From NCBI GenBank assembly GCA_021732785.1, contig JAKFUG010000015.1:1-39875 (forward strand): a stretch of DNA of 39,875 bases, read 5' to 3'. Every line of letters begins with the position of its first letter. The first letter of the stretch is position 1. The position numbers and the translations under genes are program-made. This DNA comes from Planctomycetaceae bacterium (GTDB taxonomy: Bacteria; Planctomycetota; Planctomycetia; Planctomycetales; Planctomycetaceae). Under the pieces are notes generated by a model that was not told the DNA's origin, did not search any database, and saw nothing but the letters and a program-made list of their open reading frames with translations. Positions 14,939-19,758 of this stretch are shown one piece after another.

Positions 14939-16593
<1,655 letters not shown>

Positions 16594-16594
<1 letters not shown>

Positions 16595-16661
16595 AACACA
16601 AAGGCACAGAGGACATGGAGAGAGGCCTCTTTAACTCCGTGCCCTCTGTGCCTCTGTGTTT
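16594..16661 (+). repeat. 68-bp palindrome, left copy
   Basis: The arm AAACACAAAGGCACAGAGG (16594-16612) is the reverse complement, with one mismatch, of the arm at 16643-16661. The loop is about 30 bases. It begins on the last base of the hsdM stop codon. A second palindrome of identical length and nearly identical arms lies at 17074-17141. Confidence 0.85.
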
Positions 16662-16687
16662 CCCTTCTCCTTTTGGGGGCAGGTCTC

Positions 16688-17065
16688 ATGGAACTCAACG
16701 AACTCAGTGGCGGAGTGATCGGGGCGGCGATTGAAGTGCATCGCCGGTTAGGGCCGGGACTGCTCGAATCGGCATATCGGAAATGTCTGGCGTACGAATT
16801 GCGAAAGCGCGGGTTCACCGTCGAAGAGGAACGGCCGGTCCCCGTAGTTTATGATGACGTAAAACTGGACTGCGGCTTCCGGGCCGATCTGGTGGTGAAT
16901 GGGTTGCTGGTCGTGGAACTGAAGGCCAAGTCGGCACTCCACCCGGTGGATGAAGCCCAGACCCTGTCGCACTTGCGGCTGCTGAAAATGCGGCTGGGAT
17001 TGCTGATGAATTTTCATGAAGTCAAGCTGGTCGACGGAATACGGCGGATCATCAATGGATATTAA
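16688..17065 (+). CDS. GxxExxY protein, PD-(D/E)XK nuclease-like
   Basis: The 125-residue protein carries the name-giving motif GLLESAY (residues 24-30). It also has a PD-(D/E)XK-like core, with Asp67 in FRADLVV and Glu77-x-Lys79 in VVELKAK, after helix EVHRRLGPG. That matches the GxxExxY family (TIGR04256/PF13366 as I recall), which has the nuclease-superfamily fold but no firmly assigned function. ATG 16688 follows a purine-rich GGGGGCAGG. The gene lies between hsdM and hsdS and is framed by two 68-bp palindromes, so it is probably not part of the restriction enzyme. It may be a passenger or the enzyme that moves or maintains the palindromic unit; that is inference. Confidence 0.85.
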
Positions 17066-17073
17066 GCAGGTGG

Positions 17074-17141
17074 AAACACAGAGGCACAGAGGTCACCGAG
17101 CCGGAGTTCTCCCTCCCCGTGCTCTCCGTGCCTCTGTGTTT
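17074..17141 (+). repeat. 68-bp palindrome, right copy
   Basis: The arm AAACACAGAGGCACAGAGG (17074-17092) pairs with the reverse arm ending at 17141 (CGTGCCTCTGTGTTT). The arms match the left copy closely, whereas the central loop is different. It begins 9 bases after the GxxExxY stop codon. Confidence 0.85.
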
Positions 17142-17159
17142 CCCCTCCCCGTCCGTACC

Positions 17160-17329
17160 AGCCTCAATTCCGGCCGTTACGTCGGCGTGGCGGACAAAGC
17201 CCCGGACGATTTCATCTTTGCCGAGCGGCTGGAAGAACTCAACGAAGAACTGGAAGTCCTCAACAGCGAAGCCCGTGAACTGGAAGAACGGATTGCCGCT
17301 AACGTTGCCAAACTGTTGGAGGCGGCGAC

Positions 17330-17333
<4 letters not shown>
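17160..17333 (+). pseudogene. Distal, detached copy of the hsdM 3' end
   Basis: The sequence encodes [18 protein letters not shown] then [17 protein letters not shown], matching the last 55 residues of HsdM, and ends with TGA at 17331-17333. The stop codon overlaps the GTG of hsdS (GTGA), the usual hsdM-hsdS coupling, so this was probably the original end of hsdM. The frame is open through the palindrome back to ATG 17055. It could therefore still be translated as a small protein that couples translation to hsdS. Confidence 0.75.
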
Positions 17334-18612
<1,279 letters not shown>

Positions 18613-18616
<4 letters not shown>

Positions 18617-19758
18617 CGCGAAAAGCCGTCCGACGGAAAACCGACACGGCCCCCGGTCCCGTGCCGTATCACACCGGACGATTCCCGCCGAAAGCCCTCG
18701 ATTGGCCCCGGCTGGTGCCGTTGCTCGGTCCCGCCAGTGCGGCGTTGGCCCGCTACGACGGACTGCTGCAAGCGGTGCCGAATCCAGGGATTCTGCTCGC
18801 CCCGCTGACCACGCAGGAAGCCGTCCTCTCGTCCCGCATTGAAGGGACGCGGGCCACAATGGGCGAAGTGCTGGAGTACGAAGCCGGAGGAAATGCCGAG
18901 ACCGTTCCGCCCGAAAAGGAAGCGGATATCGAAGAGGTTCTCAACTATCGCCGCGGACTGCGACAGGCGATTGAGTTGATGGATACCCTGCCGGTGTGCG
19001 GTCGGCTCTTGCGGCAAGTCCACGCCACGCTGCTGTCGGGGGTCCGGGGCCACGACAAAGCCCTGGGAAAGTTTCGGACGATTCAGAACTTCATCGGCGT
19101 CTACGGCAGGCCGATGGAACAGGCCCGTTTCGTCCCGATTCCCCCGGAACAGGTCGCGGACGGGATGAGCCGGTGGGAGCGGTATCTGCATGGCTCGGAA
19201 CCGGACGTGCTGGTGCAACTGGCCATCGTACACGCCGAGTTTGAATCGCTGCATCCGTTTCTGGACGGGAACGGACGGTTGGGGCGGATGCTGATTCCGC
19301 TGTTCCTGTTCGAGCGAAAGCTGCTGCATGTGCCGATGTTCTATCTGAGCGAACATCTGGAGACGCATCGGCAGGCATACTATGACAAGTTGCTGGCGGT
19401 CTCACGGGACGATGACTGGACCGGCTGGTGCGAATTCTTCCTGCGGGCGGTGACGGATCAGGCCACCCGCAATGAAGCCCGAGCACGGCAGATTCTGGAC
19501 TTGTACCGGGAGAAAAAAGACTGGATTGTCAACACGACCCATTCCCAGCACGCTATGCGGGCGTTGGATTTCCTGTTTGGTCAGCCGATTTTCAGCGGAA
19601 CGCATTTCAGCGAGCAATCGAACATTCCCGGTCCGACAGCGCGACGAATTCTGAAGGAATGCACAGATGGCGGATTATTGGAGGTCGTTCGGCAAGGAAG
19701 TGGTCGGCGTCCGACGATCTACCGATTCCCTGAGTTGCTGGAGATTACGGAACGCTGA
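18613..19758 (+). CDS. Fic family protein (AMP-transferase type) inside the type I R-M operon
   Basis: Fic proteins usually transfer AMP from ATP to a hydroxyl of a target protein. This 381-residue member has a Fic_N-type N-terminus with the inhibitory-helix motif S73-x-x-x-E77-G78 (SSRIEG), typical of self-inhibited class II Fic. The full active-site motif HPFLDGNGRLGR lies at 214-225. The C-terminus is winged-helix-like (FSEQSNIPGPTARRILKECT then DGGLLEVVRQGSGRR), suggesting DNA binding. All catalytic residues are intact. It overlaps hsdS by 4 bases, so it is made with the modification subunits and before hsdR. A role in restraining or regulating restriction is possible but not shown by the sequence. 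Confidence 0.92.

Follow-up and report, generated by a model that had tools for sequence, protein, structure and literature searches.

GxxExxY genes between inverted iteron arms: a candidate mobile DNA element in a planctomycete and other bacteria

Introduction

The window analysed here is the whole stretch of 39,875 nucleotides of contig JAKFUG010000015.1, from a Planctomycetaceae bacterium. It carries a small gene of the GxxExxY family bracketed by two palindromes, and this locus raises the question of whether gene and palindromes belong together and what kind of unit they would form. GxxExxY proteins are present in many phyla and their name says nothing of function; in the available excerpts of the literature mentioning them (including PMC8934634), no account of that function was found. 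Among the matches listed in full-text literature outside subscription journals, no description of GxxExxY iteron elements or palindromes was found.

Results

The GxxExxY unit of the window

The unit lies between protein genes, i.e. hsdM and hsdS, and comprises the following features:

16688-17065, + strand: GxxExxY gene, coding for a 125-aa PD-(D/E)XK-type protein (TIGR04256 and PF13366)
16594-16661, no strand: left palindrome, with iterons forward, a loop and iterons reverse
17074-17141, no strand: right palindrome, with arms as in the left palindrome and a different loop
16585-16663, + strand: left arm of a unit-wide inverted repeat, 73% complementary to 17072-17150
17072-17150, - strand: right arm of the unit-wide inverted repeat, partner of 16585-16663

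Each palindrome is 68 bp long, and the first base of the left one (16594) is the final base of the hsdM stop codon. The bracketing of the gene by these two palindromes, as announced by the original prediction, is real, and the arms were rightly described as conserved around differing loops. As a direct pair, the 77-nt stretches counted from each palindrome start match at 75%. The arm AAACACAGAGGCACAGAGG occurs at four places in the window with 0-2 mismatches (0.01 in shuffles), and a search of the 6.69-Mb draft genome with up to 3 mismatches returned these four places and no others, against one for the backwards pattern. Folded as single-strand DNA, the two palindromes reach z-scores of -7.2 and -5.5, none of 200 shuffles being equally stable. 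The unit can also be read as the wider inverted repeat listed above, which is the arrangement of most other sampled GxxExxY genes; this repeat had been overlooked, as had the presence of the hsdM 3' end on both sides of the unit.

Between positions 16400 and 17400, 21 Rfam matches (20 microRNA models and one snoRNA) were obtained at E ≤ 1; all were far below the gathering score and were taken as generic hairpins. As for the gene neighbourhood, the region 14939-19758 contains hsdM and hsdS, both type I restriction genes, and after them a Fic-domain gene matching the PADLOC SoFic model.

The GxxExxY protein

The window protein scores 135.3 bits against TIGR04256 (GxxExxY; curated cut-off 35) and 128.8 bits against PF13366 (PDDEXK_3; curated cut-off 22). 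The latter is the sole domain match of the unit's gene, with neither a HUH tyrosine transposase nor any known transposase type. Across 50 aligned sequences, D67 and K79 never vary and at least 90% retain E77, these being the D...ExK active-site residues; the name-giving motif, G24-E27-Y30, is conserved in relatives. PD-(D/E)XK membership is thus predicted from the active-site residues, and the family assignment supports the core fold. The structure model has a pLDDT of 95.8, and its top solved Foldseek matches were SSO0001 (which we take to be a Cas4 protein), LHK-Exo and MGME1, with lambda exonuclease lower; all were weak (best E 0.014, none ≤ 0.001). The Cas4, RecB and lambda-exonuclease nucleases and Rpn, which GxxExxY presumably resembles, share the PD-(D/E)XK type, although the fold matches are weak; unlike them, the GxxExxY protein has only 125 aa and no extra domain, and its gene sits between its own inverted arms.

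Sequence comparison with the PDB gave no match at E ≤ 1, and the PADLOC defence library has no family for the protein. Phages and plasmids were rejected as its common home: with the window protein as single query (E 1e-5), 5 of the 72,556 plasmid records and none of the 50,697 phage records matched, and PHROG gave no match. Five stretches matching a pattern turned up in a scan of viral contigs, none of them encoding a GxxExxY relative.

In two contigs (G044:C105, locus L215; G041:C73, locus L225), short N-terminal GxxExxY gene fragments adjoin the full gene, which suggests tandem duplication or decay of units.

Inverted arms at GxxExxY loci

Three GxxExxY genes were found in the own genome, and inverted arms enclose every one of them, with a sequence that differs from gene to gene: besides the window gene, the second has arms ACCACGAAACACG... 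of 38 nt (82% complementary) and the third arms GCCACAAGAGGCACAGAAGACACAAAAG... of 54 nt (85% complementary).

The survey was extended to 97 distinct GxxExxY loci from planctomycete relatives, a public genome contig scan, 16 further genomes and plasmid records. They remained from 126 places after exact duplicates and second genes of a locus had been dropped; the loci L172-L195 and L227-L256 and tblastn matches shorter than 80 residues were left out of the set. Acidobacteria, Opitutae, an Anaerolinea, Armatimonadetes, Sumerlaeota, Alpha-, Beta- and Gammaproteobacteria and Bacteroidota are represented, with distant family members under-sampled, since loci were picked by similarity to the window protein or as the family's best matches. 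Four of the 97 loci were dropped for short flanks, and likewise 4 of 76 in the layout reading.

Counting as arms an inverted repeat with a score of at least 15 between the two 300-nt flanks, inverted arms were found at 77 of the remaining 93 loci; the other 16 have none by the score used. Swapped flanks reached this score in 7.8% of cases and non-complemented flanks at 6 of 93 loci. Among other ORFs of 100-260 aa in the same loci, only 2 of 209 did so, these control ORFs being mechanical and possibly overlapping each other. The link between arms and gene proposed for checking thus holds across the sample. Ordinary REPs were rejected as an explanation on this ORF control and on the own-genome arm count.

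Coherent triple iterons are present in both flanks at 38 of 76 loci, against 26 matches in 244,682 bp of background sequence from those loci. Two layouts occur: many units have a single arm per end and form one large inverted repeat, and others, including that of the window, have a full palindrome per end. The original prediction had spoken of direct palindrome copies, which is right for the window but not as a general rule, given the many units with one inverted arm per end.

Target duplications and direct repeats were sought around 64 units, out of the 97, whose arms match and whose flanks are long enough. No short constant target-site duplication was detected around these units. In 11 of the 64, the direct repeat in the outer 150 nt exceeded the 99th percentile of swapped controls; the longest such flanking repeat measures 373 nt (L037), and several hold further palindromes. 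A site-specific extension of the palindromes into flanking DNA was weak, being reached by 24 of 2000 permutations, and is partly explained by outer end sequence common within a genome.

Iteron structure and its variants

The original prediction had taken a single arm sequence as the conserved part. What is conserved is rather a row of iterons: each arm consists of 2-4 tandem units of about 9 bp, with the consensus CRCnRAG, placed after T-T-n-A-A-[C/A]. The autocorrelation of 148 arms peaks at lag 9 (0.38 vs. 0.28 in shuffled arms).

Agreement between left and right arms was read over arm positions -25 to 23 in 59 of the 97 units, which were selected for matched arms and sufficient flank, so that the figures lean high. 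Iteron position 2 (A or G) agrees in 100% of these units (50% in swapped pairs) and position 5 in 97% (55% swapped), position 4 being looser (75% vs. 39% swapped). The resulting CAC and CGC classes were placed on a tree of 70 proteins, i.e. those of 77 stop-free proteins with readable iterons. On this tree, which leaves many of its deeper branchings unresolved, the class changes 13 times; shuffled labels need 23.4 changes on average, and none of 500 shuffles needed as few. It also switches inside a well-supported clade of 18 planctomycete rows (13 CAC, 5 CGC). Because the matched arm variants follow the protein tree, arms and protein tend to travel together. A link to iteron class is seen for residues 102, 103 and 124; once the tree is allowed for, it is not significant (5 independent pairs).

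Concerning mismatches between arms, 194 of 374 are transversions, and G.U-compatible mismatches exceed A.C mismatches only mildly (105 vs. 75, p = 0.03). These figures do not establish the selection on structure that had been suggested for the arms; given the G.U excess, some role as RNA is conceivable.

Gene-less copies and other cargo

Across 148 genomes of the class, a generic three-iteron pattern was matched 1135 times, the matches falling in 56 of these genomes, vs. 2 for the backwards pattern; many of the listed places are opposite-strand pairs about 60-160 bp apart. GxxExxY was found in 48 of the 56 pattern-bearing genomes vs. 38 of the 92 pattern-free ones (Fisher p = 6e-8; Spearman 0.56), and the proposed association thereby holds across genomes as well. 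These 38 genomes with GxxExxY and no generic match include the own genome, whose arms start with AAAC or otherwise depart from the required AACC. In 18 further genomes, 405 matches were found vs. 1 backwards, with up to 116 per genome; this set is no independent test of the association, since all 18 were already known to carry GxxExxY. The own genome shows none of the abundance of unlinked palindromes that would make the bracketing coincidental, but in some other genomes abundant gene-less copies do lie away from the gene.

In eight of the 56 genomes with the pattern, no GxxExxY match was found, so that copies persist or spread without the gene; one of the eight, G493, is a one-contig genome with 32 pattern matches. 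Four genomes of this kind (G493, G514, G479 and G535) have 17-39 three-iteron matches each; they may possess a different mobilising enzyme or may have lost the gene.

In one genome (G024), the content between closely similar single-arm ends (TTGAACCACAGAGACACAGAGG...) varies: it may be a GxxExxY gene, a SUKH-family gene or another ORF, and some of these ends hold no ORF at all. The other enclosed ORFs (128-364 aa, no Pfam match at E 0.01) were called mechanically, and some are perhaps not genes. Twelve loops without GxxExxY in this genome resemble one another in their 31-38 bp ends. For the pair L119/L128 the agreement extends over 66 bp, a stretch that contains a second, nested palindrome. 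This nesting, in which the loop of one iteron type holds a palindrome of another type, is clean at L119 and L128, but less so at L130 and L134. In G052 (contigs C25, C38, C68 and C70; loci L307, L309, L311 and L313), CACAGAG-type and CGCAAAG-type iteron blocks alternate, all in the same orientation, and the alternation in C25 is partly periodic (about 99 bp).

TIGR02436 genes between 7-bp iteron arms

A parallel was found for TIGR02436, presumably a four-helix-bundle family related to S23. In related planctomycete genomes, its genes lie in inverted iteron arms at 17 of 27 loci, vs. 1.2% for swapped flanks (set L081-L110, including L086 of the own genome, with 3 of 30 loci cut by contig ends left out). 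The arms are made of tandem 7-bp units such as GGTTGAG, with an autocorrelation of 0.56 at lag 7 vs. 0.33 shuffled (34 arms). Differing from the GxxExxY units in protein family and in having 7-bp rather than 9-bp iterons, these loci are possibly a sister kind of element, and they indicate that different proteins can sit in such ends.

Sites with and without the unit

In Bacteroides finegoldii (L113), a GxxExxY unit fills the spacer between radA and a FAD gene; in genome G114 this spacer has 32 bp and no unit, with 80% identity over the radA part compared. Short radA-FAD spacers are present in several other Bacteroidales, a different, frameshifted GxxExxY unit occupies the spacer in G313, and gene-less palindromes follow radA in G057. 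Likewise, the place of a GxxExxY unit of G024 is without it in the syntenic region of G009, a genome with no GxxExxY match. The comparison of occupied and empty loci, suggested at the outset as a way to define the ends of the unit, thus showed its absence at the gene level (L113/G114 and G024/G009) but only at that level, because divergence of the unit-free sites hides the ends and exact junctions.

Three Bacteroidales genomes (L113, L241 and L250) carry three different iteron elements in the radA 3' spacer, and this spacer is possibly an insertion hot spot.

The hsdM flanks of the window unit

The unit has the 3' part of hsdM on either side:

16427-16563, + strand: hsdM 3' part, first copy, also found beyond the far side of the unit
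17160-17296, + strand: hsdM 3' part, second copy, 127 of 137 nt identical to the first copy

The reading frame of the second copy stays open as far as a stop codon at 17333, which overlaps the start of hsdS. Of the last 31 nt of the first copy before the first stop, only 20 agree with the second copy, so that the two may stem from different alleles. For the window copy alone, recombination that joined two alleles of hsdM, one of them followed by a GxxExxY unit, may therefore account for the arrangement in place of the unit's own insertion with target duplication, and we hold this as a tentative option. The allele-like pattern of high identity followed by a divergent end fits it, whereas long flanking direct repeats also occur at a minority of other units (the 11 of 64 mentioned above), several of them holding further palindromes. 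Such recombination is compatible with a mobile element in general and does not compete with it. Among five genomes compared for the window site, no usable synteny and no relative with uninterrupted hsdM-hsdS was found.

Within hsdM, the stretch 16073-16142 has 21 matches in a same-genus genome (G002). As several of these lie on both strands at one place, a different palindromic repeat family seems, from sequence, to lie within the intact hsdM reading frame.

Discussion

Nature of the unit and rival explanations

The window unit is probably a mobile element that encodes the small nuclease recognising and cutting its ends. This reading is based on the arms, the matched end variants, their fit to the protein tree, the dispersed and nested copies, the unit-free sites and the conserved active site. 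From these we infer mobility, binding, cutting, mobilisation in trans and the route of copying. A nuclease tied to its own palindromes, one of the options of the original prediction, is accordingly the best reading, its activity being predicted from sequence. The element would measure about half a kilobase, with inverted iteron arms as ends (TTnAA[C/A] followed by CRCnRAG units) and GxxExxY as its only gene. As a small multimer, the protein would bind the iterons at the two ends, recognise the variant specific to its lineage and cut or nick there; the DNA between two matching arms might then be moved or copied, host repair completing the insertion. Gene-less palindromes and copies with other ORFs may be non-autonomous derivatives, moved in trans.

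The main rival holds that the iteron palindromes are moved by another enzyme, of the host or of another element, GxxExxY being a frequent passenger or a user of foreign ends. Closely similar ends around other ORFs would fit such a scenario, even if these examples come from loci mostly fetched through GxxExxY, and so would the eight pattern-positive genomes with no match to the gene and the TIGR02436 genes between analogous 7-bp arms. We nevertheless judge it unlikely in view of a protein tree that follows iteron class, of the 77 of 93 sampled genes within arms and of the co-occurrence of pattern and gene across 148 genomes. Chance co-location of common palindromes and a common gene, for which the abundance of palindromes in some genomes could be invoked, is hardly credible against 77 of 93 GxxExxY genes and only 2 of 209 other ORFs within arms in the same loci, and against an own-genome arm found only at the window GxxExxY gene.

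Less probable than a foreign enzyme, though well ahead of chance, is an action of the arms as RNA, in which a transcript stem around the ORF would be processed as in 23S rRNA intervening sequences while the nuclease acts elsewhere. The architecture does resemble the Coxiella intervening sequence, as far as the excerpts of PMC4990558 describe it, and the mild G.U-compatible excess points the same way. Since more than half of the arm mismatches are transversions and the strictness of arm agreement varies by iteron position, reading by a protein fits better than RNA.

Comparison with known systems

By architecture alone, the GxxExxY element would be of the palindrome-plus-nuclease kind. In the excerpts available of PMC3733652, REPtrons (REP palindromes with RAYT transposases of the HUH tyrosine type) and TIRtrons are described as a small nuclease gene flanked by palindromes, with many gene-less palindromes besides. 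In the RAYT/REP system, following the same excerpts, the REPs are GTAG-tagged and 20-40 bp long, and the HUH tyrosine nuclease is thought to spread the palindromes. To that extent the REPtron is the system working most like the GxxExxY elements, both combining palindromes with a small nuclease. The GxxExxY elements differ by their PD-(D/E)XK protein and by arms of about 9-bp iterons starting with AACC or AAAC, and the GTAG tag is absent from the element ends read.

As for the 23S rRNA intervening sequences, the one of Coxiella is, in the part of PMC4990558 available, a selfish element of 428 nt with terminal inverted repeats forming a 28-bp stem and one small ORF. Together with their S23 protein, these sequences resemble the GxxExxY unit in size and architecture, as far as can be told from that source; the unit, however, lies between hsdM and hsdS and encodes PF13366, not an S23-type ORF in 23S rRNA. 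MITEs and insertion sequences share with the GxxExxY elements terminal inverted repeats, short gene-less derivatives and dispersed copies, but the latter have PD-(D/E)XK as sole gene, no short target duplication found and lineage-specific iteron variants. From Beggiatoaceae, the available part of PMC4679880 reports abundant copies of a 7-bp repeat, TAACTGA, whose role is uncertain.

Compared with each of these known classes of element, the GxxExxY element departs in at least one defining feature. A lone PD-(D/E)XK nuclease that would recognise a lineage-specific 9-bp iteron code and move DNA lying between matching inverted arms, unrelated single genes among it, may represent a new class of transposable element in which the palindromes form a gene-cassette system, with a sister class of 7-bp iterons and a four-helix-bundle protein that would take in the 23S rRNA intervening sequences; this wider proposal is possible, and we advance it with reserve.

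Significance

Recurring in many bacterial genomes, the GxxExxY unit looks like an undescribed kind of mobile DNA element. A protein family whose name says little is hereby tied to a defined DNA end, with a variant that tracks the protein tree, which gives a directly testable substrate, and a candidate agent is named for a large palindrome family. The TIGR02436 parallel in 7-bp iteron arms bears on the origin of the 23S rRNA intervening sequences. If GxxExxY moves DNA between such ends, it would be, to our knowledge, the first transposition-like system resting on a lone PD-(D/E)XK enzyme.
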